64,000 bases of DNA from Bacteriovorax stolpii. GTDB taxonomy: Bacteria; Bdellovibrionota; Bacteriovoracia; Bacteriovoracales; Bacteriovoracaceae. This document shows positions 17,800 to 34,396 of the stretch, piece by piece. The notes under the pieces were generated by a model. It was not told where the DNA came from and did no database searches. It saw nothing but the letters and a program-made list of their open reading frames with translations. The first letter of the stretch is position 1. Every line of letters begins with the position of its first letter. Location: NCBI GenBank assembly GCA_945905815.1, contig CAMDQH010000007.1, positions 1 to 64,000 of the forward strand, read 5' to 3'. The position numbers and the translations under genes were made by a program.

Positions 17800-18921
17800 A
17801 TGATTCGCAAGTACATTGATGTTGGCCTTATCACTTTAGGTTGTATATTAATGGTAGCCTCATTTTTTGTTTTTTCCACTGCAAAAAGAGATGGTCAGAA
17901 TTTTAGGAATATTGTTGCCCAAATCAAGTTCCTAACAAATACAGTCCAGACCAAAATGGCTGGGAGCGTTGCGTGGTTTACTGGCGAAGAAGAACAAAAA
18001 ATCAATGCCTATGGACTTGGATTAACGGCTTCATCATCATCGGCCCGTTACTTATACTTAGATAAGATTCAGATTATTTCTCTTGATGATTCTTTAATTG
18101 AATTCTTACCAGGAGACGAACTGAAACTAACCAAGGGTAGTGCGATGGTTTTAAACCCTGATGGTAAGATTAAAATAGCAGATAAAAATGGAACATCAAC
18201 GGTTGTAAAAGAAGGAATGCTTTACACATCTACAGAAAAGGGATTAGTTGGTACTCCTGCCAAATTTGAAAAATCATGGATACCTGAAGGCGAAAATTAT
18301 TCAGTCGTATTTAAGGATGGTACTTTGACAGAATTTTTCCTACTTGCACCTCCAACCCTGGTAATCGATCGATTTGGAGCTGCCTGTATCGGTAAACTTC
18401 AACCTATTGGCGGAGATTCAGGCGATGTTGCATATGAGATTAGAGCAGGAGAAAGTCAACTTACTTTAACCAATATGGAAGTTACGCTTCCTGCAGTAAA
18501 ATCAGATATTTCAGTCAGGTCAATTGCTGGAGGAGTAAGTTCCATCTGGCGTGAAATCCAACTACCTGCTCATTGTGTAACAGAGGTCGAAGAAGCACCG
18601 GCCCCTATAGCTGCTCCAGTTGAGAATTTGGAATTTTTCGCAACTACTAGAGAGAAAGTTTTTTTAAAAGACCCAGATTCAACTCATATTTTTCTTGTTT
18701 CATTTTTAGTGGCAAATGAAGCTCTGCTCGAAATTAAAGGACCTCAAATGAATCGTCGAGCAAATATTTCTGGTGAATTTAAAAGAGAATATCAATTAGC
18801 ACCAGGAACATATAGCTTCAAATTGACTCAAGATGGAAGAGTTTTGAATAGAATTATTGTTGTGAAGCTCAAGCCATCTTTTAAACTGAATGATTCTATA
18901 TTTATCGAAGAGACAAATTAA
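17800..18921 (+). CDS. FecR-like membrane-anchored protein
   Basis: A 373-residue protein with one N-terminal helix (residues about 7-27) and the rest most likely periplasmic. Residues about 52-130 resemble a FecR domain: a G-S-V-x-W-F start, a region with S-A-R-Y-L-Y-L, then the I-I-S-L-D-D-S and L-x-P-G-D-E-L-K-L strand pattern. The last 90 residues look like another beta-sandwich. FecR-like domains often bind ligands or sigma-factor partners; here the role is unknown. AAAGG at 17787-17792, inside the divergent phosphatase gene, supports the start. The 3' end overlaps the convergent HD-GYP-like gene by 20 nt. Confidence 0.65.
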   Translation: MIRKYIDVGLITLGCILMVASFFVFSTAKRDGQNFRNIVAQIKFLTNTVQTKMAGSVAWFTGEEEQKINAYGLGLTASSSSARYLYLDKIQIISLDDSLIEFLPGDELKLTKGSAMVLNPDGKIKIADKNGTSTVVKEGMLYTSTEKGLVGTPAKFEKSWIPEGENYSVVFKDGTLTEFFLLAPPTLVIDRFGAACIGKLQPIGGDSGDVAYEIRAGESQLTLTNMEVTLPAVKSDISVRSIAGGVSSIWREIQLPAHCVTEVEEAPAPIAAPVENLEFFATTREKVFLKDPDSTHIFLVSFLVANEALLEIKGPQMNRRANISGEFKREYQLAPGTYSFKLTQDGRVLNRIIVVKLKPSFKLNDSIFIEETN

Positions 18922-20176
18922 GATGTTTTAATATCTTCGTTTTCAAGTCCCTCGCTTTGTCAGATCCATCAGGCATTGAATTGATGAAGACATTTAGGTC
19001 GATTTTTGTTTTTTCCTTTGCCATATATCCGTATATTTTTTCGGCCCATTCGTGATTGTAAGCAAATAGGAAAGTTGCAACACCTAGGGAAGATGAGTGA
19101 ATTCCAAGAGGGTAACCAAAACCGTTGTCATTTTCGTGATGAGATAAAACCATTTCAGCAACCCAGCGAGGACAAATTTGATGTTTTACTAATAAAGACA
19201 GTGAGGCTTGACCATGCCTTGAATAGTTACTGATCAGGTTCTCTTCTAACATTTTCTCCATCGCGAAATCGTTAAATTCATACTCTTCAAACCCGTAACC
19301 CAAAGTACCTAGGTCATGAACAAGAGCAGCTAATGTGATATTAAAAAAGACCACTGCTGAACCAATTCCAAGTGCTGACATTGTTGCAATATTCATACAC
19401 ATCAAAAATGTAGTGTGCTTTAATTGATAATTATTTTTTTGTAGAATCTTTTGAATTGCATCCGAAAGTTCAGGATGTCCATTAAGTAAAAAAGCAATCC
19501 TTTCCAAGGCAGAAAAAAGCAAATATTGATCAGTTTCAGGAATGCCATGATAAGAAGTAGATTCTAAAAATGGAATGACTAATCCCAAAGGGCCATTATG
19601 AGTAATTGAGGGACTTGAGACACTTTTGAAATAAGCTAATGTTGACTCGCCCCAGTCTTCTTCATAATCTGGACGATCTTCTTTTCTAATAAAAAAGAAT
19701 CCATGTCCATTTTTAAAAAAAGTCTTAATACTATCGTTGGAAATAAAACTTTTTTTAGTAATTGCGATTTTAAACTCTGTTCCATTTTTTACAAAAAGAT
19801 CGACAGGGGTATAACCAATAAATCCGGCCATATTAGAATTAAGAGGCAGAAAAGGGACGACTGAAAACCATTTATTGAGCGCAGAAAAATACGCGTCAGT
19901 CTTCGCAGTAAAATCTTTTGGGGAGAAAGAGATGAGAAGAATATTCAGATCATTACTTCTCAAAAATTCATGAATAAGATGATAGTCAGGATGACCGGTC
20001 TGGATAATTATTCCATCAGGAGGAATCGAGTGAAGGAGGTGTTCTTCTACTTCATTGAAGCTAAGAAGGTGAACACATGATCCGGAATATCTGGTTGCAA
20101 CGATTGAAATAACTTCTTCAACAAAAAAATCTTCCTGGCCTAAGACGATTAATTTATAGCTTTTACTTTTGTCCAA
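18902..20176 (-). CDS. HD-GYP-like protein with degenerate receiver
   Basis: A 424-residue protein. Residues 1-115 fold like a receiver domain but lack the usual acidic pocket; the middle is not recognised. Residues about 230-400 form an HD-GYP-like domain: LVHDLGTLG, a later His in RHGQASL and LSHHENDNGFGYP. In canonical c-di-GMP phosphodiesterases the motifs are HD-x-GK and HHE-x2-DG-x-GYP; here lysine is threonine and the DG aspartate is asparagine, so activity is doubtful and a signalling-adaptor role is possible. TTG is the start: GGAG lies 5 nt before it and no ATG is near. It overlaps the end of the CheY-like gene by 28 nt, so the two are coupled. Confidence 0.8.
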   Translation of the reverse strand: MDKSKSYKLIVLGQEDFFVEEVISIVATRYSGSCVHLLSFNEVEEHLLHSIPPDGIIIQTGHPDYHLIHEFLRSNDLNILLISFSPKDFTAKTDAYFSALNKWFSVVPFLPLNSNMAGFIGYTPVDLFVKNGTEFKIAITKKSFISNDSIKTFFKNGHGFFFIRKEDRPDYEEDWGESTLAYFKSVSSPSITHNGPLGLVIPFLESTSYHGIPETDQYLLFSALERIAFLLNGHPELSDAIQKILQKNNYQLKHTTFLMCMNIATMSALGIGSAVVFFNITLAALVHDLGTLGYGFEEYEFNDFAMEKMLEENLISNYSRHGQASLSLLVKHQICPRWVAEMVLSHHENDNGFGYPLGIHSSSLGVATFLFAYNHEWAEKIYGYMAKEKTKIDLNVFINSMPDGSDKARDLKTKILKHLNLSLR

Positions 20177-20562
20177 GAATTCTCCATCTTTTTTAAGAGA
20201 GACTGATCATCCCATGGTTTAAGCAGGTAACTATCAACTCCTTTATCAATTGCATCAAGAATGGTATTTTTTTTTGTAATTGCAGATAAAATTAAAAATG
20301 GGATTTTTGAAAAATCTTCATGCGCCTTTGCGTAGGCAAGAAAATCAATTCCTGATTCGCCTGGCATATCAACGTCTGAAATAATAAAATCAAGAGTTAG
20401 ATACAATGGGTTATTTGTCAGGATATCCCGGGCAAGACTAACTTGATCTGCCTCAAAAATCTCTCCTCGAAAACCAAGGGCTTTCAGAGACTTTTTGAGT
20501 GACTTTCGAGTCGCATAGAAGTCATCCACGATCAAAATATTTATTTCTCTTGGTATCCCCAT
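20149..20562 (-). CDS. CheY-like single-domain response regulator
   Basis: A 137-residue receiver with all key residues: D13-D14 (ILIVDDF), phospho-acceptor D63 (ISDVDMPG), S93 (LILSAIT) and K115 (YLLKPW). It has no output domain, so it passes phosphate or a contact to a partner. The ATG at 20562 starts the normal family length; a TTG six codons earlier touches the start of the divergent kinase gene. Its 3' end is overlapped by the HD-GYP-like gene. The divergent CheA-like kinase is the obvious phosphodonor candidate. Confidence 0.93.
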   Translation of the reverse strand: MGIPREINILIVDDFYATRKSLKKSLKALGFRGEIFEADQVSLARDILTNNPLYLTLDFIISDVDMPGESGIDFLAYAKAHEDFSKIPFLILSAITKKNTILDAIDKGVDSYLLKPWDDQSLLKKMENSWTKVKAIN

Positions 20563-20580
20563 GGATATATAATAATTCAA

Positions 20581-22242
20581 ATGAATTTAAATGGTGAACA
20601 GATTTTAGAATTTATACCTGAACCAGCTCTCGTTATTGATAACGCGGGTATCATTATATCTGTAAATGAATTCTTTCTTTCTCAATACGGTATTAAAAGA
20701 CGATTATTCTCCAATGGTAAGCTTTCAATTAAGGAACTTATCAAGTTTGAAGATGCTGATAGCCTACAATTATGGGATGAATCTTTTAGAGAAACAGCTT
20801 TTACTATTATCCCAAGCGCAATATCAGGAACTTGTCTCCTCGGTGCGAGAAAAATAGATGACCAATTTCTTTTGGTTTTGAAAGATAATTCTGTTGAAGT
20901 CCAGCTTCATAACAAATATCAAGTCCAGCTCGATGAATTGGCCGAATATTCAAAAGGTTTGGAAGAAAAGGTCAGAATCAGAACCAAAGAACTATCTGAA
21001 TCGAATCAGTATATATCAGGAATGCTTGATAGCCTTAATCAAGCAATTCTTGTTTTAAATGAAGATGGAAAATGCCTTCCCTATCACAACACAAACTGTG
21101 CCAGCATATTCAAAACCTCACCAGAGGGTAAAAGTTTTTGGGATATCATTGAAGTTCCCGAGGAAGAGCAAATCTTTTTGCGAAGATGGATTTCACACCT
21201 TATAAAAGAAAAGATTAACTTCGAAGACATTGCAGAACTTGGCCCACAGGTCGTTATAAAAGATGGCACTCATATTGAACTTAAATATTTCCCTCTACGT
21301 ACTGAAAAGCTCAAAGCTGAAGGCGTTGTTGTTGTTGCCAGAGACATAACGAGACTAGTGGAACTGGAAAAAGATCTCCATACAACTGAAGAATTTGAAA
21401 AAGTTCTTACCAAAGTTGCAACTAATCTTTTTATCTATAAGTCAGCTGCAGAGGAACAAGAACAGTCATTAAAGACTCTTATATGTGAGACAAAGGTTAA
21501 TGAGCCTAAATTTAAAAAGGTTCTACACAAGCTCAAAGGCAGTTATTCTTTGTTCTCTATGCATGGACTTGAAAAGATGACTCATCAAGTGGAAGATTTA
21601 CAGAACTGTGAAATGCCTACATGGCAATCGGCTTTCAATATTCTAAACCAAGAAACGAAAATTCTTCATGCCCGCTTGGCAAATTCATTAAGTCTTCCTC
21701 TTTCAGGAACCCATGTGTGGGTAAGCTATGAAAAAATAAAATCTCTAGCAAAGAAACTCGGTCACCCCTATTACGATGAAATCATGGCCATGACAACCAT
21801 GAGTCTTAAAGATTACATCTCTTCATACTCTACTTTTGCTGATGAATTATGTTCTCAGCTAAATAAAAAAATACATGGATTTGTTATTAATGGACCAGAA
21901 CTATCAGCAAATCCCCAACTGATCACGGCCATTCAACCAATTTTGACTCTTTATTTTCGAAACGTAGTTGATCATGGTTTCTGGGCAGAAGATGATAAAA
22001 TGAATCATATCAATATTACTTTTAACCGAATTGAGAATAGGCTTAAGTTGAAGTTTTCTGATTCTGGTCGAGGTTTAAGGCCAAAAACAGAACAAACAAC
22101 TAATATAATTTCAGGCCGTGGACTGGGCATGCAAATAATAAAAGAACAATTAAAAGATTTAAATGGCTTCCATGAACAAACCTTTTCAGATGAAGGTTGT
22201 GTTCTATCAATGGAAATGGATTGGCCAACAGAGGAGAATTAG
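20581..22242 (+). CDS. CheA-like hybrid sensor kinase: PAS-PAS-HPt-HATPase
   Basis: A 553-residue soluble kinase. Residues about 8-110 and 145-258 are PAS-like, joined by a short coiled coil (AEYSKGLEEKVRIRTKELSE). Around residue 300-385 is an HPt-type helical domain with the phospho-histidine motif LHKLKGSYS (His316). Residues about 395-553 are an HATPase: N-box YFRNVVDHGFW, G1 FSDSGRGL, G2 SGRGLGMQI. There is no HisKA dimerisation helix with its histidine, so histidine phosphorylation would be on the HPt as in CheA. The STAS gene follows 2 nt after its stop. Start at 20581 is 18 nt from the divergent CheY-like gene's start. Confidence 0.85.
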   Translation: MNLNGEQILEFIPEPALVIDNAGIIISVNEFFLSQYGIKRRLFSNGKLSIKELIKFEDADSLQLWDESFRETAFTIIPSAISGTCLLGARKIDDQFLLVLKDNSVEVQLHNKYQVQLDELAEYSKGLEEKVRIRTKELSESNQYISGMLDSLNQAILVLNEDGKCLPYHNTNCASIFKTSPEGKSFWDIIEVPEEEQIFLRRWISHLIKEKINFEDIAELGPQVVIKDGTHIELKYFPLRTEKLKAEGVVVVARDITRLVELEKDLHTTEEFEKVLTKVATNLFIYKSAAEEQEQSLKTLICETKVNEPKFKKVLHKLKGSYSLFSMHGLEKMTHQVEDLQNCEMPTWQSAFNILNQETKILHARLANSLSLPLSGTHVWVSYEKIKSLAKKLGHPYYDEIMAMTTMSLKDYISSYSTFADELCSQLNKKIHGFVINGPELSANPQLITAIQPILTLYFRNVVDHGFWAEDDKMNHINITFNRIENRLKLKFSDSGRGLRPKTEQTTNIISGRGLGMQIIKEQLKDLNGFHEQTFSDEGCVLSMEMDWPTEEN

Positions 22243-22244
22243 AC

Positions 22245-22718
22245 ATGGGTAAATTAGAATTTAAAATTGAAACAAAAGGTGACAACAACGTCTTTTACTT
22301 ATCAGGTAAAATAGATGAAGATTTTAGACGCAAAGACCTTGAGATAAATGATTTCAAAAAAGTTACATTCAATTTTCGTGATCTCACGATGATTAACTCC
22401 TGCGGAATTCGCGAATGGATTGATTTTCTTAAAGCAATTCCAACAGACATCGCCATTCAGTACGAAGAATGTACACCTATCATCGTTACGCAAATGAATA
22501 TTATTTCAGGCTTTCTAAGATCTAACATTAAGGTTGTTTCATTCTATGCCCCATACTTTGACCCATCAAATGATACGGAAACTTTGCATTTAATTCAGAC
22601 GAAAGACATTACTGACGTTTTACCACCGGTCGTAAAAAATGCTGATGGTGATCAACTTGATTTCGATGCCCATGCTGAAAAGTATTTTTATTTTTTAAAA
22701 ATCCAGGAAGGCAAATAA
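22245..22718 (+). CDS. STAS-domain protein (anti-anti-sigma-like)
   Basis: A 157-residue protein whose first 100 residues form a STAS domain: strand NVFYLSGKIDEDF, then VTFNFRDLTMINSCGIREW with the serine (S52) that is phosphorylated in SpoIIAA/RsbV-like antagonists, and the helix IREWIDFLKAI. The C-terminal 50 residues are an extra tail. GGAGAA 8-10 nt before the ATG at 22245 fixes the start. It follows the CheA-like kinase by 2 nt. An RsbW-like ATPase converges from the other side and a SpoIIE-type phosphatase is in the same island, the set needed for a partner switch. Confidence 0.85.
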   Translation: MGKLEFKIETKGDNNVFYLSGKIDEDFRRKDLEINDFKKVTFNFRDLTMINSCGIREWIDFLKAIPTDIAIQYEECTPIIVTQMNIISGFLRSNIKVVSFYAPYFDPSNDTETLHLIQTKDITDVLPPVVKNADGDQLDFDAHAEKYFYFLKIQEGK

Positions 22719-22730
22719 GAACCTATAATA

Positions 22731-22766
22731 AAAAGGCATCTGAAGAATTTATTCAGATTGCCTTTA
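22731..22766 (-). terminator. Intergenic terminator
   Basis: Stem AAAGGCA-TCTGAA / TTCAGA-T-TGCCTTT with a one-base bulge (22732-22765). Read leftward it is followed by TTTTATTATAG, a usable T-run, and it abuts the stop of the RsbW-like gene. On the plus strand the tail is weaker. Confidence 0.7.
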
Positions 22767-23684
22767 CTCAAGAAACAAGTGAAATGATTTCTCTTTCAAG
22801 TCATAAATCTTGTACTGCTTATCATTTTCAATAATTACTAAGACTTCGGTTTTGACGCCTTTTTCTACGTTAATAATATATTTGTGAGCGTACTTAAAAA
22901 TAAGGTGCATACCAATCCCAGCTCCACCCGCTTTTTCGCTAACTTCACCATTCGGTAAATATTCAAATACATCATTTTCCGTAATTGAACCAAATTGATC
23001 TTTAACACTTACTACAAACTTTTTAGCATCAGAGTAAACATTTACTTCAACATCTTTCCCAGGAATCATATGTACAATTTCTGAACGATTTTTCTCCCTA
23101 TAAATATAATTTCCGTCATCATCAACAGGAGCATTAAAAAACGCATTGAATAGTGCTTCATTCAAAATGTGAGTCAAAAAACTTTCAATTCCACTGAAAC
23201 TTTTAGAAAAATCATGACCAACCAATAGTTCTTCAATCTTGTCATTTAGATTTTGCGAGTTATTTAAAGATGCTGACGTGATTTTGATAGGGACAGGAAC
23301 AAACATTTCTGCCGACCATTTCTTTTGGCCAATCCAGTAAATGATAAAATCCTTGATGTCTGACAATGAATTTGGACTTGAAAGCCCAAAAAGATGATGC
23401 CCATGAGTCTTGTTCAAAATGCGATTAATTTCCTCAAAGTCGGCAATAGAAACAAGAATGCACAACTTGCTAACGTAGGTTAAAGCTTTTGAATAAAGTT
23501 CTGAATCTTTTTCTGCATAAGTATGGTCCATGAATATGAGGTCGGCATCTGCCATGTGTAGTTCAGTATGAAAAACAACATGACTAACAGCCGACTTTAC
23601 TAGAAGCTTTTCAATATTAGGAATAAGCTTCGAAGCAGATGCAGAAAGAATTAAAATATGTACGTTGGGTTGCGTTTCAGTCAT
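22764..23684 (-). CDS. RsbW-like HATPase (anti-sigma/serine kinase) with N-terminal receiver-like domain
   Basis: A 306-residue protein. Residues 1-120 resemble a receiver without its acidic pocket. Residues about 150-290 form a GHKL ATPase: N-box ILNEALFNAFFNAP, G1 VKDQFGSI, G2 EKAGGAGIGMHLIFKYAH. The N-box and the absence of a histidine-bearing helix match RsbW/SpoIIAB serine kinases rather than sensor kinases. Such kinases phosphorylate STAS antagonists, and a STAS gene converges with it 45 nt away. No sigma factor is encoded in the window, so the output is unknown. Confidence 0.85.
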   Translation of the reverse strand: MTETQPNVHILILSASASKLIPNIEKLLVKSAVSHVVFHTELHMADADLIFMDHTYAEKDSELYSKALTYVSKLCILVSIADFEEINRILNKTHGHHLFGLSSPNSLSDIKDFIIYWIGQKKWSAEMFVPVPIKITSASLNNSQNLNDKIEELLVGHDFSKSFSGIESFLTHILNEALFNAFFNAPVDDDGNYIYREKNRSEIVHMIPGKDVEVNVYSDAKKFVVSVKDQFGSITENDVFEYLPNGEVSEKAGGAGIGMHLIFKYAHKYIINVEKGVKTEVLVIIENDKQYKIYDLKEKSFHLFLE

Positions 23685-25205: not shown

Positions 25206-25871
25206 ATGGAAAAATTTATTCATGTTGAGCGATGTGATTCTACACAAGATCTTATCAAAGAACAATTATTGCAATCTGCTCAGGACGAATTAACAGTAAG
25301 TTGTGAGCATCAGATAAATGGACGTGGACGAGGAAGCAACATCTGGCAGGATTCGCCAGGAACTCTTTGTTTTTCTATGACAATAAGACCGCACATACAG
25401 GTCACATATACAGCACTTGAAATTTCTCTTCTCGTACATCATTTTTTCAAAATGAAAGGGAAAGAAATTAGATTGAAATGGCCAAATGATCTAATGACTC
25501 TAGAAGAAAAAAAATGTGGTGGTGTTTTAGTTCAGAATTCTGAATCTCGCTATTACGTAGGAATAGGACTCAATCTTTTTCAAAACGAAAGTTCATTAGG
25601 TGGAATTTATGAAACCTCTTTTCCTATAAATAAACAAGAATGGGTCAAAGAATTAAGTGACTACATAAGGTCAAATCGATATTCAAACACAGAAGATTTG
25701 TCGAAAGACTGGCTAAAATCGTGCTTTCATTTGAACCAACAGGTCAATATCTCTGAAGGTGACCAGGAGACATGCGGTAAATTCGTCGGCTTAGGACCCT
25801 ACGGAGAAGCACTTCTTGAAAATTCTCAAGGTACTCACCATTTATTTAACGGAAGCTTACGTCTACTTTGA
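25206..25871 (+). CDS. birA: Biotin--[acetyl-CoA-carboxylase] ligase
   Basis: Joins biotin to the lysine of biotin carrier proteins. Seen: CDSTQDL, the adenylate-binding GRGRGSNIWQDSPG, KWPNDL and KCGGVLVQ (lysine for catalysis), YYVGIGLNLF, and a small C-terminal SH3-like domain. At 221 residues it lacks the N-terminal helix-turn-helix of regulatory BirA (group I-type ligase), so it should not repress biotin genes. Its client in the window is the biotin-carboxyl carrier protein at 50.1-50.6 kb. The 3' end overlaps the convergent receiver gene by 9 nt. Confidence 0.95.
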   Translation: MEKFIHVERCDSTQDLIKEQLLQSAQDELTVSCEHQINGRGRGSNIWQDSPGTLCFSMTIRPHIQVTYTALEISLLVHHFFKMKGKEIRLKWPNDLMTLEEKKCGGVLVQNSESRYYVGIGLNLFQNESSLGGIYETSFPINKQEWVKELSDYIRSNRYSNTEDLSKDWLKSCFHLNQQVNISEGDQETCGKFVGLGPYGEALLENSQGTHHLFNGSLRLL

Positions 25872-27182
25872 ATCGTTAAGAATTTTATTAGAGATCTTAC
25901 TCATTTCTTGTCGAATCAGATTTTCCGCAAGATCAGGTATAATTTCCCATGAGATCTTTTCGACATTTTGTTTAAACATTTCATCCATGTATTCTTTTAC
26001 ATGTTTTTTGATTAATTCTTCCATTTCTGAGCGAAGTTCCTGCATATTCACTTCTGGTACAACACGATTAACCGGCTGATTAAGAGTTTCAAATGTAATA
26101 TGATCAGAAGATGCACTCCATTGTAGTTCATGCTCATCTAGTGACTTAAATAAATTCTCGTCAATATCTTTAACTGGTGAACGGAAGCTATCTTTTACTT
26201 CTTCCATCTTTGCTGAAACTTCTTTTTTAAGCTCTTCAAATTCATCAACCTGCCAAAGATCTTCCTCTACTTCATCTCTAATCTGGGCTTCGATACTTGA
26301 AACATCAGTCTCATCAACAGCACTAATAGTGTGTTCAATTTCAAATTCGACTTCTGGCCCATTATTGAAGGTTTCAATTGAAATCAGTTTTGATTTTACT
26401 TTAGATGTTTCATCAACAGGTGATGGCTTAGATTCTGTTAATTCTTCAATCGTTGGGTAATCCAAATCATTATTTTCAGGGAATTTGATATCATTTTTTA
26501 TAGCTGTCGGAATAGAAGCCTTGGCCACTAGCTTGTTCTTGTGCTCATCAAGAGATTTTAGCTGTCCTATCACGGGAGGAAGATCAATCTTAATTTCATG
26601 AGACGAATCATCATTGATTATGCTTGGAATACTCATTCCCCAGTCAGATACTTCTTGATCAAGGGGGTTAAGATGATTTCTAACATCGAATGAAGCTATG
26701 ACTGGAGTTTCAATAATTTTTTGTTCAATTGTATGAGTGACCTGCCATTGATCCTCTTTGTCAGGAACAACCGCTTCCTCAGTATTGTATTCAGGAAATT
26801 TTATTTTCTCCAACGGAGCGGTATCGACAAGTCGCTTGCAGATTGCAATAAACTTATTTGAATCAAAAGGTTTAACAATTTTATCTGCAGCACCACACTT
26901 ATCAAATGCAGCATCATCAATTGAATCGAACGTTCCTAGTAAAAGCAAAACACGCGCAGAAGGAAACATTGCCTTAATTTTGGATGCGAGCTCATAGCCT
27001 GAATATTTTTCAGAAAGATTGAAATCCAAAAATACAAGTTCAGGTTGCACTTGAGGTAGTTTTAGAAACAGTTCATCATCTGTCGCACAATCAACGATAT
27101 CGAAAGGCTGATTGGCCAAAGTGATTTTGATAACTTTTTGAATAGTCAGACTATCGTCTGCCAATAGAACTTTATGATTCAT
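25863..27182 (-). CDS. Receiver domain with long acidic linker and conserved C-terminal helical tail
   Basis: A 439-residue protein. Residues 1-120 form a receiver: LLADDSLTIQKV (acidic pair), FLDFNLSEKYSG (phospho-Asp in LDFN), and IVKPFD (lysine). Residues about 130-380 are acidic, low in complexity and probably disordered. The last 60 residues form amphipathic helices (VKEYMDEMFKQNVEKISWEI and ending MSKISNKILNDSK) of a kind I associate with tails of deltaproteobacterial response regulators. It is the last gene of the FHA/PP2C string, 47 nt after the PP2C gene. The output mechanism is unknown. Confidence 0.8.
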   Translation of the reverse strand: MNHKVLLADDSLTIQKVIKITLANQPFDIVDCATDDELFLKLPQVQPELVFLDFNLSEKYSGYELASKIKAMFPSARVLLLLGTFDSIDDAAFDKCGAADKIVKPFDSNKFIAICKRLVDTAPLEKIKFPEYNTEEAVVPDKEDQWQVTHTIEQKIIETPVIASFDVRNHLNPLDQEVSDWGMSIPSIINDDSSHEIKIDLPPVIGQLKSLDEHKNKLVAKASIPTAIKNDIKFPENNDLDYPTIEELTESKPSPVDETSKVKSKLISIETFNNGPEVEFEIEHTISAVDETDVSSIEAQIRDEVEEDLWQVDEFEELKKEVSAKMEEVKDSFRSPVKDIDENLFKSLDEHELQWSASSDHITFETLNQPVNRVVPEVNMQELRSEMEELIKKHVKEYMDEMFKQNVEKISWEIIPDLAENLIRQEMSKISNKILNDSK

Positions 27183-27229
27183 ATGAAAATTATAGAGTGG
27201 GCTGCCGCAGTATGGGAATGGAAAAAATC

Positions 27230-27967
27230 TTAAAACTCGAGAATCATTGCAGTCTGATTGTCGAGGTTACCATGAGAATTGGACAGTTTTAGTAAACTAT
27301 TCACCCTTTCTTGGGCATCAGGGGCATTTCGATTGAGGTGATGCAGAATCTCCTCCTCAGATAAATAGGCATAGAGCCCATCAGTCATCAAGAGAACCTT
27401 GTCACCTTCTAAAAGTCGAACTTCTCGCATCTGGTAGCCTAGCTCGGGGTACATACCTATGGCATTCATGGGGGAAGTGCGGAAACGACTGTCAAACTGA
27501 CCTTTAGACAGATGTTTAAGGGTATCTTCTACAATAATTTTTGAAAGAGTTCCCTGCCGGTAATGATAAGCACAGCAATTTCCAACCCCAACTAAAACAA
27601 GAAGACTATCTGATCTGGCAGCAACAACAACACTAGATCCCGCCCTTTGGTTTACAGGCTTTTCAGAATTGCTCTTATACAGATTTTGGTGCGCATTTAT
27701 CATTGAGTTTAATATCGCGTTACCTTCAAGTAAATTTCGAGGATTGTAATAAAGCGGCATTGTCGCATTTGGATCATCTGAGAGCTGTGTATAAAAAGTT
27801 TTTATTTCCCCTTTAAGCTTTTCAACTGCTCTATCGCCGATCCCTGATCCACCAAAACCATCTAGGACCATAAAAAGGTCATTATCAAAATCAAAATCGT
27901 ATCCATCTTCATTTACCTGAAGATATGGGCCTTGATGAGTTTGTGCGGCATATGCCTTAAGTCGCAT
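27230..27967 (-). CDS. PP2C-family serine/threonine phosphatase
   Basis: A 245-residue cytosolic phosphatase of the PppA/Stp type. Motifs: NEDGYDFD near the N-terminus, MVLDGFGGSGIGDRAVE (D36), AGSSVVVA, TDGLYAYLSEEEI and DNQTAMIL, so all metal-binding aspartates are present. It sits 3 nt after an FHA-domain gene, and FHA domains bind phosphothreonine, so the phosphatase probably erases the marks those proteins read. No Hanks-type kinase is in the window. Confidence 0.93.
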   Translation of the reverse strand: MRLKAYAAQTHQGPYLQVNEDGYDFDFDNDLFMVLDGFGGSGIGDRAVEKLKGEIKTFYTQLSDDPNATMPLYYNPRNLLEGNAILNSMINAHQNLYKSNSEKPVNQRAGSSVVVAARSDSLLVLVGVGNCCAYHYRQGTLSKIIVEDTLKHLSKGQFDSRFRTSPMNAIGMYPELGYQMREVRLLEGDKVLLMTDGLYAYLSEEEILHHLNRNAPDAQERVNSLLKLSNSHGNLDNQTAMILEF

Positions 27968-27970
27968 TTG

Positions 27971-30133
27971 TTACTCCAGATAATCTTTCAGTTTGTCACT
28001 CGACTTTTTATAATACTCACTATCGGTCGGAGAAATTTGTTGAACTTCTTGAAACTTTTCTTTGGCATCGCTAAAAAGGCTTAGTGATTCTGCAATAATT
28101 GCTTCACGGTATATCTTTTTAGATCTTGTGTCTAAAGAAGATCTGATATCATCCACTTCATTTAAGGCTTCCGTATTTGTAGGTTCAATTTTTAAAATTT
28201 CAAGAAAAGCTTCATATGCACTTCTTAAATCTTGGCCTTCCTTCAAAGATCTGGCCTTTCCAATTAATGGTCCAAGATCCGCCGATAGCTGGTTTTTTGC
28301 ATCGGCCAGCATGTCACTGCCCTCTTTAACTAGATCTTCATCAATGCCTTTTCTAGTAAGGAACTCTTCCAGCTTTAAAATTGCCTTATACCATTCTTTT
28401 TTAAGATAAAACGTTTTACCCGGACTAAGTGCATCCACTAGAGATTTACGAGCAGCTTCCTTGGTTGCTTTTTCAAGAGCGAGGCGTTCTTGCTCTTTTT
28501 TCCAAGCCTCAAGTTCCATTTCCAATTGTTGTTTTTCAATGTTTTCAGGATCCTTCTCAGCAATTTGTGAAAAATAACTTTCTGCGACTGTGACAAGTTT
28601 TTCCTTCACCGCTTCTCTTGCCTTAACCAATAATTCTTCGACTTTTCTTTTAGTTTCTAGCCTTTCTTCTTCAGCACGCTTCTGAGCTTCCAATTCCTGA
28701 AGTCGTTTAAGTCCATCCTCGGTTTGATCAAAATATGTCGTAACTTTTTTGTATTTAGGATCAATTCCCATTACTGTCTGAAATTCTTTCAAGGCTTCAG
28801 AATATCTATTTTGTTCAAAAAAGCTTACACCTAGCTCGTAGGACATATTTCTTTTTTGTTCCAAGTCTTTTGAAAGTTGTTTTTTGGCTTTGGCATTTGT
28901 GTCTTTGCTTAAATCAATTTTAGGAGCAACCTTGACTACAGGAGCTGGCTTATCCTCAGGAGAAAACATGAGCCATAAGACAACGACGCCCACTAGTGCA
29001 TAGATCGCCTTCTTTCTTTTAACAGGATCTTTCCAAATTCTTTTTAATGGACTTTTTTCGATAGGTCCTTCTGAATTAAAGTCAACATCACCATCTTCAA
29101 CATCAACCATTTCCTCTTCGATTTCTTCCGTCTCGATGATTTGACCGCTTTCAACAGGCATTAATCGATCTGACTCGGCATCAAGAAGATCTGATCTCGT
29201 TTCTAAAGAAAAACTGGTACTACCAATAACGAATTCATCTCCAGTAGAAAGGTGCGCTTTATTAATTCTCTCACCATTTAAAATGGTTCCATTTGATGAA
29301 TTTAAATCTTCTAATGTTATATCAATGTTGTTTTTTCTTAAAACGGCATGAACAGTAGATACCTCGGGATCATCTAGAACAATCTGACATTTCTTGGGAT
29401 CACGACCAATAAAGATCTCAGTAGTATCAATCTGATATCGATCATATGGTGCATGCTCACCAAACAAAACAAGCTGATAATTTACAAAGGCTTTAAAAAA
29501 GCGTGTACTTTCATCGCTTAACGCTTCCTCGCCAAAAGATTCAACTTCATTTTCACCAAATGACTCCGCAGGGAGAAGGCTCTCTTCACTAGGAGCTTCA
29601 TCATCAAATGATTCCTCCGTATCAGTAAAAGCAACCTCTTCCTTTTCGACAGGTAATTCTTCAACCGAAGCTTCAGAGTTCGGCATCATTTGGGTATCAT
29701 CGAGCTCTTCAACAGGTAACGTATCCTCAAGCATGTCATCAATCATATCAATTGAATTTTGAGGTTTCACATCCTGAATATAAGACTGAGGCGGACTTTG
29801 GTATACTTGGGAAATGTTTTTTATATTAGAAGGCATTTCAGTTAATATGAGTGAATAGCCCCCACATTTAATCTCGTCCCCATCTTTTACTTCCATTTGA
29901 TCAGAAGCATTGCCATTGATGCTCACGAAGCCAAGCTGCGACAACTTTTCACAATACCATCTACCAGATTCATTTTTTAAAACGAAGTGATGGCGGGAGA
30001 TCAAGGGGTCATCAATTATCACGTGACAATCCTCAGATCTTCCTACATAAATTTCGTACTTTTCATTAATATCTGGTGTTGCCACCAAAACATCATTAAT
30101 TGGTACGTGATTTTTTAAGACAGTTAGTCTCAT
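27971..30133 (-). CDS. Two-FHA-domain membrane protein with TPR-like tail
   Basis: A 720-residue protein. FHA 1 (residues about 28-95) has GRSEDCHVIIDDPLISRHH but a poor S-x-N-G end. A very acidic linker (about 110-210) follows, then FHA 2 (about 240-310) with complete FIGRD, VSTVHAVL and LNSSNGTILNG. One helix at 376-390 spans the membrane and the rest, rich in coiled-coil/TPR-like helices, would be on the other side. Its start overlaps the previous gene's end by 38 nt. This looks like a phospho-responsive scaffold; the target is unknown. Confidence 0.9.
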   Translation of the reverse strand: MRLTVLKNHVPINDVLVATPDINEKYEIYVGRSEDCHVIIDDPLISRHHFVLKNESGRWYCEKLSQLGFVSINGNASDQMEVKDGDEIKCGGYSLILTEMPSNIKNISQVYQSPPQSYIQDVKPQNSIDMIDDMLEDTLPVEELDDTQMMPNSEASVEELPVEKEEVAFTDTEESFDDEAPSEESLLPAESFGENEVESFGEEALSDESTRFFKAFVNYQLVLFGEHAPYDRYQIDTTEIFIGRDPKKCQIVLDDPEVSTVHAVLRKNNIDITLEDLNSSNGTILNGERINKAHLSTGDEFVIGSTSFSLETRSDLLDAESDRLMPVESGQIIETEEIEEEMVDVEDGDVDFNSEGPIEKSPLKRIWKDPVKRKKAIYALVGVVVLWLMFSPEDKPAPVVKVAPKIDLSKDTNAKAKKQLSKDLEQKRNMSYELGVSFFEQNRYSEALKEFQTVMGIDPKYKKVTTYFDQTEDGLKRLQELEAQKRAEEERLETKRKVEELLVKAREAVKEKLVTVAESYFSQIAEKDPENIEKQQLEMELEAWKKEQERLALEKATKEAARKSLVDALSPGKTFYLKKEWYKAILKLEEFLTRKGIDEDLVKEGSDMLADAKNQLSADLGPLIGKARSLKEGQDLRSAYEAFLEILKIEPTNTEALNEVDDIRSSLDTRSKKIYREAIIAESLSLFSDAKEKFQEVQQISPTDSEYYKKSSDKLKDYLE

Positions 30134-31061
30134 CTGGCTCCATTCCCATTTTAGTTTCTAAATCTCGAATCTGCTTTACAGCACTCTCATGTCGTTTATC
30201 TGTCGGGACGGTATAAAGTAAACGTATAATTGAACAATAGGACACAATCGCACTTTTAAACTTGAGTGATCCTTCGTCGCGCTGGCCCCTTATCGTAAAT
30301 TCTTCAATTGTCTTATCTAAGCGTTCTTTCGTTTTACTTAAGTAATATTCTGCATATGAATCTCCAGGAGAAATAGATAAGGCAAGGTTAAATTCTGCGA
30401 TGGCTCTATAGAAATTTCCTTCTCTGTACTCTCTTAAGCCACGCTGATAAATAACATTTAGTTTTTCTTTAGTTGCCTTGTCTTCATTTGCCTGCCGTTT
30501 TTTTAGTTGGTCCAGATACTCGCCAGATACATCCTGATAACTTGAAGATGTACCTTTTTTAGACTTCTCGCTATTTTCATATTTTTTACCTTCGTCACCA
30601 AAGATCATATATATAAAAAGGCCTGCCAACAGAATCATTGGTATAAGTGTTTTCTTGGCACTGTTTCCGGTAGGAGCTTCGTCATCGTCCTTAGCCGTTT
30701 TAGCTTTTGCCGTAACTTCTACTTTGGCAAATTTGAAAACAGTCTGTCCTACAATGAGTTTATCGCCCTCATTTAGTTGCGCTTGGGTAACCTTTTTATC
30801 GTTTACCATTATACCGTTTTGAGACCCAAGATCTGTAGCAACCCAATTGCTACCAACTTTTGTGATTTCGGCATGCTCACGACTAGTTTTGGTATCATTT
30901 ATTTTTATGTCCGCCTTTTCACCACGCCCAATAACAATCCGGTTACCGGTTAAGACATAGGACTCGCCCTTACTGCTTCCAGTAAGACAAACTAACCGGA
31001 AATATGTTCCAGTCTCTTTGGGGGATTCAAAATGTTTAAGTACTAAAACATTCTTTGCCAT
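30096..31061 (-). CDS. FHA-domain membrane protein with TPR-like tail
   Basis: A 321-residue protein with a canonical FHA domain (residues about 43-112: VIGRGEKADIKIND, SREHAEI, DLGSQNGIMVN), a membrane helix (138-154) and a C-terminal TPR-like region (YQRGLREYREGNFYRAIAEF, then LALSISPGDSYAEYYLSKTK). Same architecture as the 720-residue neighbour but with one FHA domain. It starts 2 nt after the third FHA gene. The three together probably assemble at the membrane around phosphothreonine marks. Confidence 0.9.
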   Translation of the reverse strand: MAKNVLVLKHFESPKETGTYFRLVCLTGSSKGESYVLTGNRIVIGRGEKADIKINDTKTSREHAEITKVGSNWVATDLGSQNGIMVNDKKVTQAQLNEGDKLIVGQTVFKFAKVEVTAKAKTAKDDDEAPTGNSAKKTLIPMILLAGLFIYMIFGDEGKKYENSEKSKKGTSSSYQDVSGEYLDQLKKRQANEDKATKEKLNVIYQRGLREYREGNFYRAIAEFNLALSISPGDSYAEYYLSKTKERLDKTIEEFTIRGQRDEGSLKFKSAIVSYCSIIRLLYTVPTDKRHESAVKQIRDLETKMGMEPDETNCLKKSRTN

Positions 31062-31063
31062 AA

Positions 31064-32638
31064 TTAGCTCTTAACGAAAGTAATATAGAATCCTTTCGCA
31101 AATTTATCCTTTCCAACAAGAGCAACTACATTGATGCTCATATCTTTACCACCTATCTGATAACCTTCTTTCTGATTGCTACCTTCATTGTTAGCAGACT
31201 TGTCACACAAATCAATTATCGTAGCTGCGAATCCCTGATCTCTTGCTGTATCCAGTAAACTCTGACCGGCAGAGGCATTTTCGCGAATTCCAATTAAGTC
31301 TTCAGCTTCTGGATTGATATTTTGAATTACCTTTTCAGAATTCAAAATAAGAATAGGTCCTTGGGCCCCTTCCATGAATTCCTTTAGCGTTCTTAAATAG
31401 GGGCCATCTTCTTCCTGACTCTGTACTTCACCACCGTCAGTGTTTTGTAATTCTTTTATCCTCGTTAAAATGCTGTTAATAGTATTTCTTAGAGGGTGAA
31501 TTTCTTTAAAAAGAGTATTTGAAGTCAATTCTTTTTGCCTACCTCGTAAAACGGCCTCTATTTGAAATCTAATTTCGTCGAAAGGCCTAATGGTCATATA
31601 ATAAAGAATTCCAAAGAAAATGATCGCAACCATTCCCGCGGTAATCAACGATTCAAGATATGCTTTCGAGTTATTAGAGGCTTCCCTTGCGAGTGAACTT
31701 GGAGAGAAAATAATTGTAATTACAGCAACCACAACATCTCGTCCCATTTTGTTATCATGTGCCCTAATTGCGCGAGCAATACCAATTTGATTTCCACTTA
31801 AACTTTGAATAACTTCTTTATCCTGATTACTTTCCGTTTTGTAAAACTTAAGTGCATCAACTGAGAATGGATCATTTACAATAGTATTCAAGCTTTGGAG
31901 TGGTCGATAAACTCGTCCTTCCATGTCATACAATTTATAACTTTGAACTCCTTCAGCATCCGTTCCTTCAAGAAAATCGGTTCTGATAAGGTCCAGGTTT
32001 TTTTCGCGTAAATGAGCGCTATTAAGGTGATCGACTTCAGCGGCGTATTGCTTTCCGCGCAAGGCAATTTCTTTTATTAGAAGTAGTTTACTATCCCTCA
32101 ATACTGGCAAGATTGTTAACGTTATGGTAATCGCGATAAATATAAATAACAGAATCCCGACTAATGCGGCCCACTCATACCTTTCATTAAAACCATAAAC
32201 TATTGGCATTACTTTATACTTAAATAACCAAATAGGCTTTCCAAGCAAGTTCTCGGGCATCGGCTCGACTTGCTTTAATTCATCATATGAATCATCATCT
32301 TCATCATCCCCTGCCCTTGAAACTTTCTTTTTAATTATTGTTTTTTTCTCTAAAACATAAACTACTTGAAGAATCAAATTTGGCAGGGCTATTTTATCAC
32401 CATCTTTAATGGTGATCTTCTTTATTATTTTGCCATTTACTAAGGTTCCATTTGAGCTTCCTAAGTCCTCCGCAAATGCCGTCTCCCCATTCACTGTTAG
32501 TCTCAGGTGCTTTTTAGAAATTCCTTCAACTGGCACAGAGTGGTCACAGTCTGCGGCACGACCGATGATATTATCACCATCATTTAAGATAAATTCCTTA
32601 CCTCGAAGTTTGCCTCCAACGACTACTAGCTTAAACAT
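31064..32638 (-). CDS. FHA-domain membrane protein with PAS-like C-terminus
   Basis: A 524-residue protein. FHA domain at residues about 20-93 (IIGRAADCDHSV, ISKKHLRL, DLGSSNGTLVNG). Two membrane helices (about 156-180 and 328-348) enclose a periplasmic part, followed by a helical signalling linker and a PAS-like domain (about 410-520, beginning FMEGAQGPILILNSEKV). It senses something outside while reading phosphothreonine inside; no enzymatic domain is seen. Its start overlaps the end of the DUF192 gene by 8 nt. Confidence 0.88.
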   Translation of the reverse strand: MFKLVVVGGKLRGKEFILNDGDNIIGRAADCDHSVPVEGISKKHLRLTVNGETAFAEDLGSSNGTLVNGKIIKKITIKDGDKIALPNLILQVVYVLEKKTIIKKKVSRAGDDEDDDSYDELKQVEPMPENLLGKPIWLFKYKVMPIVYGFNERYEWAALVGILLFIFIAITITLTILPVLRDSKLLLIKEIALRGKQYAAEVDHLNSAHLREKNLDLIRTDFLEGTDAEGVQSYKLYDMEGRVYRPLQSLNTIVNDPFSVDALKFYKTESNQDKEVIQSLSGNQIGIARAIRAHDNKMGRDVVVAVITIIFSPSSLAREASNNSKAYLESLITAGMVAIIFFGILYYMTIRPFDEIRFQIEAVLRGRQKELTSNTLFKEIHPLRNTINSILTRIKELQNTDGGEVQSQEEDGPYLRTLKEFMEGAQGPILILNSEKVIQNINPEAEDLIGIRENASAGQSLLDTARDQGFAATIIDLCDKSANNEGSNQKEGYQIGGKDMSINVVALVGKDKFAKGFYITFVKS

Positions 32639-32975
32639 TGTTGACCTCCAGGATATCTCCTTCCTTTAAGTCGAAGGGGAATTTCCCTGCGGGGAGCTCG
32701 AGCGTTTTATTTGCACGAAAATATATCCACGTCATTCTCCATGGCTTCATATTACGAATTATTTTTATGATTTGATTTTCAGAACTTAAGAAAATAATAT
32801 CAAGGCTATAACGCATAAAAAAAGTATGAATTGACCGACATGGATCAAGTAGCAGCCCATCCGAGCCCACCAACTTCTCTCTAAACATTAACCCTATTAA
32901 TCTATCCAATAAGCTTTCAGCAATCAGTATGTTTTGTGACAAAATTTTATCTCGATAACTAATTTGTATTTTCAT
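32631..32975 (-). CDS. DUF192-family protein
   Basis: A 114-residue cytosolic protein of the DUF192 family: LIGLMFREKLVGSDGLLLD, the H-T-F-F-M-R-Y segment (SIHTFFMRYSLDIIFLSS), and LELPAGK with the G-D-x-L ending (KEGDILEVN). Most family members are exported; this one has no signal peptide. Function is unknown. It overlaps the TadC-like gene before it by 4 nt and the FHA gene after it by 8 nt, so it is firmly within the unit. Confidence 0.88.
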   Translation of the reverse strand: MKIQISYRDKILSQNILIAESLLDRLIGLMFREKLVGSDGLLLDPCRSIHTFFMRYSLDIIFLSSENQIIKIIRNMKPWRMTWIYFRANKTLELPAGKFPFDLKEGDILEVNNV

Positions 32976-34396
32976 GGAGACCCCGACATCATTTTTAAAA
33001 CCATTGGTGCAAAGATAGCAACCAACACAGCAGGCAGAATAAAGAAAATCATTGGGATAAGAATTTTCGTTGCTGCTGTTGCACCGGCCTGCTCTGCTCT
33101 TGCGGAGCGCTTTACTCTCAACTCACTGGAAAGTTGTTTTAGAAGTGGGCCAATTGAAGCACCTACTGAATCTGCAGCAATCAGCGTTGCGCAGAATGAA
33201 TTTACTTCAATGATGTTTACTCTCCATCCTAGTTGGCGTAACCCCTCGGCCCTGGATGAACCAATTTTAGTTTCTCTGATTAGAGTTTCAAATTCTTCAT
33301 TCAATGCACCCGCTGGTGCTTTTTCAATCACTCGCTGGATTGCTGCCATAAAATCAAGACCTGCTTCTACTGAAAGAGCAAGCATGTCTACAATGAAAGG
33401 CATTGCCCTCAAAATCTCTTCCGCACGATTATTAATTAATCCGCTCAACCAGATATTGGGGTAAAAATATCCAACCAATCCCATGACTGGAGTAATCGAA
33501 AGTGGCCATGTTTCTTCCATAATAAAACGAACAATTAGAAATGCAAAAGGCCCACCTAAAATCATAAAAAACTTTAGTGCCATAAATTCTTCAGGTGTCA
33601 TTTCTTTTAAAAGACCAGCATTCGCTAGTTTTTGACGATACTTTGTTCTGTACTTTTGTTTATTCTTTCCCTGAGTCATAGGTAAAAAATATCTTTTGTA
33701 AAACGGACGAGTTATCTTAATAAATAAAGGCTGCTTTTTTACTTTTGCACTATTTTCAGCATCCTCTAGCGCTTCTTGAGTTTTAAATTTATCTTGTTCT
33801 TCCATGAAAACTCTAACAATAATAAATATAGCTATAAAAATAAGTAGAGCAGGAGACCATTTCAGCAAGTCATAATTTTCTTTCCACACTTCAACTTCGT
33901 CAGACTTTTGATCAAAGTACCTACCTACTTTGACTCCTGCGCTGAATTGAACTACACACGCAGCAGTTTTTGATTTCTGGTCTTCTTTTCTAATGAGTTC
34001 TAATGCAGAAGTTCCTTCTTTATCCAGAAAGATTCTTTCAATCATCCAATTATTGCTTCTATTTATTGTAATGGATGAATTAGGGCTAAAAGATTTGTCT
34101 CCACCATAAGTTACGGCATCAAGATAAAGTGTACATGCCATTTTATTTGCTACAGTCGAAATAACCTTTAATTTTCCAACCATACCGTTGGCCGTTTTAT
34201 AAAAAAAGATATCGTTTGTAAGTTCAGCATTAAGACCTATTGATGCTTTATCTAATAATTTCACTTTCTCGGAACCAACAATACATGGAATATTAATTTG
34301 AGAAAATTCTGCAGGACAAGATACCTGCGCCCACGATGTCGCAACTGGTAATATTAATCCCAAAAATATAAAAAAATTGTAGATGTAAGACGTCAT
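32972..34396 (-). CDS. TadC-like type II/IV secretion F-domain protein
   Basis: A 474-residue protein. A signal-peptide-like helix (residues 1-24) and a periplasmic part with cysteines (to about 175) precede a helix near 180-195. The C-terminal half carries a T2SSF (PF00482) domain: MLALSVEAGLDFMAAIQRVI, then IRETKIGSSRAEGLRQLG, with hydrophobic helices before it and at the end, most like TadC. The periplasmic N-terminal part is not usual for TadC. No TadA ATPase, TadB, pilin or other Tad/T4P genes are in the window. It is the first gene of the FHA unit, following a terminator. Confidence 0.8.
   Translation of the reverse strand: MTSYIYNFFIFLGLILPVATSWAQVSCPAEFSQINIPCIVGSEKVKLLDKASIGLNAELTNDIFFYKTANGMVGKLKVISTVANKMACTLYLDAVTYGGDKSFSPNSSITINRSNNWMIERIFLDKEGTSALELIRKEDQKSKTAACVVQFSAGVKVGRYFDQKSDEVEVWKENYDLLKWSPALLIFIAIFIIVRVFMEEQDKFKTQEALEDAENSAKVKKQPLFIKITRPFYKRYFLPMTQGKNKQKYRTKYRQKLANAGLLKEMTPEEFMALKFFMILGGPFAFLIVRFIMEETWPLSITPVMGLVGYFYPNIWLSGLINNRAEEILRAMPFIVDMLALSVEAGLDFMAAIQRVIEKAPAGALNEEFETLIRETKIGSSRAEGLRQLGWRVNIIEVNSFCATLIAADSVGASIGPLLKQLSSELRVKRSARAEQAGATAATKILIPMIFFILPAVLVAIFAPMVLKMMSGSP

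Follow-up and report, generated by a model that had tools for sequence, protein, structure and literature searches.

A tadC-FHA-PP2C gene block of Bacteriovorax stolpii as the probable signalling half of a Kil-like Tad pilus

How predatory bacteria sense contact with their prey and fire the pilus used for invasion is an open question. The predator Myxococcus xanthus uses the Kil system, a Tad-like apparatus for contact-dependent killing whose core is distributed over two loci and is encoded together with several FHA proteins (Seef et al., PMC8460266; PMC12075869). The authors of the Kil study placed the systems of Bdellovibrionales, which comprise many FHA proteins, in the same clade as Kil-like systems and proposed a role for FHA-based signalling triggered by contact (PMC8460266). 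In Bdellovibrio bacteriovorus HD100, the operon Bd0470-Bd0475 (PMC12034629) is located apart from the main Tad locus (bd0108-0121). The Bd0470 (tadC) mutant is defective in attachment, killing, and rounding of the prey, and the mutant of the FHA gene Bd0474 attaches to prey without killing or rounding (Duncan et al., PMC6561027). The last gene, Bd0475, has been called hypothetical (PMC12034629). Here, we analyze a stretch of 64,000 nucleotides from Bacteriovorax stolpii (assembly GCA_945905815.1, contig CAMDQH010000007.1, positions 1 to 64,000; hereafter the window), which harbors at 25863-34396 a block of seven genes encoding TadC, a DUF192 protein, three FHA proteins, a PP2C phosphatase, and a RomR-like receiver protein. 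This block probably contributes TadC and the signalling components to a Kil-like pilus of the Tad (type IVc) kind that would serve prey contact and invasion and be gated by a kinase/FHA/PP2C circuit.

A reading of the window made without database searches (the sequence-only reading) had described seven leftward, tightly packed genes. The coordinates, the Pfam matches (T2SSF in TadC, DUF192, FHA in three proteins, PP2C, and Response_reg), and intergenic distances of -4, -8, +2, -38, +3, and +47 nt confirmed this description, all seven genes being on the minus strand of contig C7. The host assembly (3.01 Mb, 141 contigs) is rated 100% complete. The gene tadC (32972..34396) encodes the Tad pilus inner-membrane platform protein (474 aa; PF00482, E 7.9e-14) and is overlapped by the gene for the DUF192 protein (32631..32975; 114 aa; PF02643, E 2.7e-17). 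FHA_A (31064..32638; 524 aa), FHA_B (30096..31061; 321 aa), and FHA_C (27971..30133; 720 aa) were assigned by Pfam and by their pocket residues and, for FHA_A, a structural model. They are followed by the PP2C phosphatase (27230..27967; 245 aa; PF13672, E 5.1e-8; Stp1/PP2C model, E 3.9e-23) and the RomR-like protein (25863..27182; 439 aa; PF00072, E 2.5e-11). The order TadC, DUF192, FHA, FHA, double FHA, PP2C fold is that of Bd0470-Bd0475, and both operons are separated from the main Tad locus. Based on this order, FHA_A and FHA_B are the predicted orthologs of Bd0472 and Bd0473, respectively; FHA_C is the ortholog of Bd0474 and the PP2C that of Bd0475. The two operons differ in that the PP2C metal ligands, intact in the window, are gone from Bd0475, and in that RomR (Bd2761) is not located beside the HD100 operon whereas the receiver gene adjoins the block in the window. 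Its orthology to Bd0470-Bd0475 connects the block with earlier work on predation (PMC6561027, PMC12034629), and it belongs to the FHA-containing Kil-like Tad systems described before (PMC8460266).

Conservation was assessed in genomes of the Bdellovibrionota. TadC was detected in 115 of 116 genomes of the class Bacteriovoracia and in 242/242 genomes of the phylum. The 20 class loci compared, from 19 genomes, retained the order TadC-DUF192-FHA_A-FHA_B-FHA_C-PP2C-REC as far as the retrieved sequence reached, with the exception of genome G058. Among 80 named relatives, which overlap partly with these 20 loci, those with enough downstream sequence displayed, in order, FHA_A (75/75), FHA_B (69/69), FHA_C (67/67), PP2C (64/64), and the receiver (60/62); DUF192 was seen at 75 of 78 named loci. 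A sample of 20 loci from 17 other families always showed FHA_A, FHA_B, and FHA_C after TadC, and DUF192 was recognised in 18. Joint conservation of TadC and the FHA genes, which the sequence-only reading had named as a check, was confirmed in these sets. The strongest evidence came from six deep-branching loci (L073, L074, L076, L077, L078, and L081), in which the block runs directly into genes for pilin-like, TadE, CpaB, secretin, and TadA proteins. The fusion of the block to a Tad cluster in these loci indicates that the FHA and PP2C genes are part of a Tad system, of which the window displays a split arrangement.

The sequence-only reading had seen only TadC of a Tad machine. The other genes of the set are located on contig C22, in a locus encoding CpaA, a small Flp-like protein without Pfam match, two TadE-like proteins, CpaB, a secretin, a CpaE-TadA fusion, and TadB (Pfam-level content including RcpC/CpaB, Peptidase_A24, and TadE/F-like). 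No TadC was found in this locus, which runs into unrelated genes after TadB. A genome-wide search for T2SSF domains returned two tandem pairs of the GspF/PilC type, the TadB of contig C22, and the TadC of the window, which is the sole TadC of the genome; a search elsewhere in the genome for a complete Tad locus that included a TadC found none. The type IVc gene set is complete at the level of the genome (ATPase, TadB, TadC, secretin, CpaB, prepilin peptidase, and pilin-like protein). Because TadC is single-copy and the C22 locus is devoid of it, the window protein would be, by elimination, the platform partner of TadB and TadA in the only Tad machine of the genome.

The split was read gene by gene, among the matches listed, in 25 genomes of the family. 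The CpaE-TadA fusion was present in 25/25 of the genomes searched, and 20 of the 25 had exactly six T2SSF matches. The surplus matches, again among those listed, corresponded to duplicated contigs (G044), a third pair of the GspF/PilC type (G056), and second Tad clusters (G039, G072, and G074). In G097, a relative assembled as one contig, the two Tad halves are separated by ~392 kb. Second Tad-type loci with their own TadB and TadC, apart from the FHA block, were observed in G039 (C26:39019-41951), G074 (C40:22748-25594), and G072 (C128), those of G039 and G074 also showing TadA. The periplasmic N-terminus of TadC, pointed out earlier as unusual, does exist as a signal peptide and periplasmic extension of ~180 aa, but it is a lineage trait confined to part of the family. 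A plain TadC of ~300 aa is the form encoded by most relatives, and the extension was rejected as a functional key since it is missing from them.

FHA proteins are encoded with Tad core genes, as in Kil. The KilF ATPase contains an FHA domain, whereas no FHA match was found on the CpaE-TadA fusion ATPase of the host genome, which carries ParA/CbiA and T2SSE domains. For this reason, the block is classed as Kil-like and not as Kil proper. In addition, TadB and TadC are encoded in one cluster in Kil and are split here, and the main text of the Kil paper mentions neither PP2C nor DUF192 (PMC8460266).

The metal-binding and catalytic motifs of the window PP2C (NED, DGFGG, TDG, and DNQ) are all intact, and its nearest solved structures include PppA and PstP. 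The cut-off of the Stp1 equivalog is missed (82.2 vs 230 bits). In an alignment of 84 PP2C sequences of the class, N19, E20, D21, D36, G39, G40, and N237 were present in 84/84, and D196 and D236 in 81 each. In families f14-f21, the order of the block is kept and the motifs are partly lost, often the C-terminal DN. In Bdellovibrionia-type families, the gene at the PP2C position retains no metal ligand; it is Bd0475 in locus L087 (12161-12847), which we take to be that of HD100, and occupies the same position in L083, L085, L086, and L088-L091. Bd0475 has no Pfam match. Profile comparison (hhalign) aligned the gene at this position with the active PP2C group (E 3.5e-13) and with the intermediate group (E 8.6e-17), and the best PDB matches of the Bd0475 model (pLDDT 86) were all PP2C phosphatases (tPphA, 1.5e-12, PstP, and PppA; Foldseek). 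The idea that this gene is unrelated to PP2C was rejected on the basis of the comparison with the active group and of the Foldseek matches. Homology is indicated by synteny, profile comparison, and predicted fold, and Bd0475, annotated as hypothetical, appears to be a PP2C-fold pseudophosphatase. The PP2C active site is thus intact in sequence throughout the class and is lost step by step elsewhere, apparently leaving a pseudophosphatase in Bdellovibrio, a pattern that was not found in the literature searched.

The three membrane FHA proteins carry four FHA domains, as read initially from the sequence, two of them in FHA_C. FHA_A, which had been counted simply as one of the three, is also sensor-like: its FHA domain is followed by a transmembrane helix (TM), a periplasmic sensor domain, a second TM, a HAMP-like helix, and a PAS domain, with no kinase domain. 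In the AlphaFold model of FHA_A (mean pLDDT 84, pTM 0.40), the domains are confident, their relative placement is not, and the periplasmic domain is of the mixed alpha/beta type. In Foldseek, FHA_A matched the WalK sensor as well as FHA-phosphothreonine complexes, among them that of B. bacteriovorus DgcB. According to this model, FHA_A most resembles a WalK-type sensor that has no histidine kinase. FHA_B consists of an FHA domain, a TM, and a TPR-like periplasmic region, and FHA_C of two FHA domains, a TM, and TPR. The pocket residues (R of GR, S and H of SxxH, N of NG) are intact in FHA_A, FHA_B, and the second FHA domain of FHA_C (FHA_C2) of the window. The phosphothreonine pocket of FHA_A (GR, S..H, SNGT) is kept phylum-wide with few exceptions, and FHA_C2 keeps NG in nearly all relatives. 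The SNG part of the FHA_B pocket is eroded in Bdellovibrionia relatives, and the loss of its NG falls in much the same lineages as the decay of the PP2C, FHA_A and FHA_C2 retaining theirs. Gating by binding of phosphothreonine to an FHA domain has been demonstrated for DgcB, another predation protein (PMC6733907).

The seventh gene had been read as a receiver with a disordered tail. The receiver stands, with the phosphoacceptor D53 and K104 conserved, but at the end of the tail there is a conserved helix, which reads EKVAWEVIPDLAENLIRKE in most relatives, and the protein is RomR-like. RomR of HD100 aligned with it over the receiver (31% over 121 aa, E 1e-13) and the tail (32% over 44 aa, E 4e-6). 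With RomR as the query, only the window gene was found in the host genome; conversely, the C-terminal 60 residues of the window protein matched only itself in its own genome and one protein in HD100. The latter (L212), started at TTG, fits residues D11, E12, D55, and K107 reported for RomR (PMC6428892), and because of this agreement it can be equated with Bd2761. On these alignments, the assignment as RomR-like is good and strict orthology with RomR is probable. The window protein shares with the RomR/MglA polarity module a receiver, a long variable linker, and a conserved C-terminal helix, and is the sole such protein of the genome. In HD100, RomR binds partners of the MglA network and localises to the invasive pole (PMC6428892, PMC11025332). 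Neither the RomR-like identity of the seventh gene nor its location directly behind the Tad/FHA/PP2C block (60/62 loci), which differs from that of RomR elsewhere, was found in the literature searched. RomR-like genes of other classes are also located near birA or rph, which flank the window receiver too, and the place of this gene beside the block could reflect an old housekeeping neighbourhood instead of a functional link.

No Hanks kinase is encoded within the 64-kb window, in agreement with the sequence-only reading, which had suggested looking for one elsewhere. None proved to be linked to the block, but the genome does contain one on contig C17 (652 aa, HRD and DFG motifs present). Two additional weak Pkinase matches looked like ABC1/UbiB-type proteins and were rejected as Hanks kinases. 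Kinases of like architecture were detected in most phylum genomes sampled, including HD100, where the single strong match (3.06 Mb) is apparently Bd3148, judging from its position and single-copy status. For Bd3148, Meek et al. (PMC6733907) noted a role in predation and proposed that it is the kinase acting on the FHA protein DgcB. On contig C17, ~6 kb separates the Hanks kinase gene from that of a DgcB-like FHA-GGDEF protein (L020:6561-8519 and 14198-15109). In the deep-branching genome G242 (L099/L217, C10 ~196360-198044), a Bd3148-type kinase gene divergently adjoins a RomR-like gene, followed by rph, an arrangement that is possibly a physical hint of coupling between the kinase and RomR. 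Within family f1, G056 displayed 25 Pkinase matches, several in frames of ~2000 aa, vs one to three in the other genomes searched.

These elements can be assembled into a mechanism. TadC would pair at the platform with TadB and the CpaE-TadA fusion of contig C22, and the FHA membrane proteins would surround this inner-membrane platform as a signalling collar, presumably in contact with TadC. FHA_A may sense a cue in the envelope via its periplasmic and PAS domains, and FHA_B and FHA_C may tether partners bearing phosphothreonine. The unlinked Bd3148-type kinase is the likely writer, acting in trans; the FHA proteins would read phosphothreonine and the linked PP2C would erase it and reset the circuit. 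The RomR-like protein might dock the complex at the invasive cell pole, the circuit as a whole gating the assembly or firing of a pilus that would serve predation in B. stolpii as well. The proposal of the sequence-only reading, that a Tad-like machine is coupled to a phosphothreonine switch through a membrane platform, withstood both of the refuting conditions named with it, since TadC and the FHA genes are conserved together and the Tad locus elsewhere is devoid of TadC. The block is not an orphan locus. The extension of the full circuit to the whole phylum, with an eraser that is predicted to work in Bacteriovoracia, to decay in intermediate lineages, and to survive only as a pseudoenzyme in Bdellovibrionia, B. 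bacteriovorus included, is put forward tentatively, as slightly more doubtful than probable.

Several observations weigh against gating by a phosphothreonine circuit. A linked kinase was absent from every block locus sampled, and genomes G240 and G171 keep the block with the kinase absent or below the cut-off, for which an assembly gap and a real loss fit equally. In G058, a member of the family, TadC is separated from the FHA genes. The first FHA domain of FHA_C is devoid of the NG motif in all relatives. Since the PP2C is degenerate in Bdellovibrionia, its erasing activity would not be essential to the machine as such, which is still needed there (PMC6561027), and the FHA proteins could be static scaffolds. 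This is the main rival: the FHA/TPR proteins would be structural parts of the Tad envelope complex that do not read phosphothreonine, and the PP2C would serve otherwise or be vestigial. The ring proteins SctD/YscD of type III secretion systems carry FHA-fold domains as structural elements, and the Pfam family Yop-YscD_cpl also matches all three FHA proteins of the block; the NG motifs missing from FHA_C and lost from FHA_B in Bdellovibrionia point in the same direction. The ring-building domains of type III systems, however, generally lack the phosphothreonine-pocket residues, which FHA_A and FHA_C2 retain across the phylum with few exceptions. The degenerate PP2C lends the scaffold explanation some weight in HD100, and less in the class because the active site is strictly kept there, with motifs invariant or nearly so in the 84 sequences. 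Overall, we regard a purely structural role as unlikely.

Far less plausible still is a mere housekeeping neighbourhood, in which TadC and the FHA/PP2C genes would be co-transcribed but have no joint function. The location of the block between mreB, nagZ, birA, and rph in the class would suit this explanation, but the flanks differ in other families while TadC-DUF192-FHAx3-PP2C remains intact, Tad genes flank the block in the six deep-branching loci, and the tadC and double-FHA mutants of HD100 both fail in predation (PMC6561027). The pairing of FHA with PP2C, and PppA among the structures nearest to the window PP2C, also recall the PpkA-PppA-Fha1 pathway of type VI secretion systems (T6SS), in which a Hanks kinase writes, FHA reads, and PP2C erases to gate a contact weapon. 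Here the kinase is unlinked, the machine is a Tad pilus, and the block of relatives is joined to Tad genes and not to tss genes. VipB/TssC was detected in 0/14 genomes (the host and 13 related genomes), the E. coli control being positive, and a T6SS partner for the block was rejected on this basis. That the block serves a T6SS encoded elsewhere in the genome is scarcely conceivable; of the two comparisons made by the sequence-only reading, that with Tad holds and that with T6SS is an analogy only. Gating of a Kil-like Tad pilus by a phosphothreonine circuit remains the preferred explanation.

Elsewhere in the window, a signalling cluster at 16120-23684 encodes a HAMP-SpoIIE phosphatase, a lone receiver, and a PAS-Hpt-HATPase protein alongside several proteins without Pfam match. 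No RNA element of the window was matched by Rfam. Promoter-like sites were no more frequent than in shuffled sequence, and terminator-like sites slightly more so (14 vs a shuffle mean of 8.5, sd 3.3).

The FHA proteins of Kil and Tad systems have been suspected to signal, a writer has only been proposed, and an eraser was not described in the literature searched. The comparison reported here yields a candidate writer, readers, and an eraser as one set. It leads to the re-annotation of Bd0475 as an apparent pseudo-PP2C, offers an explanation for the 'missing' TadC of predator Tad loci in the form of a separate block, and shows that a RomR-like polarity gene adjoins the machine throughout the sister class. 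The live and dead phosphatases provide a natural contrast between lineages. If the proposed circuit is correct, the two best-known groups of predators would reset the same weapon differently.

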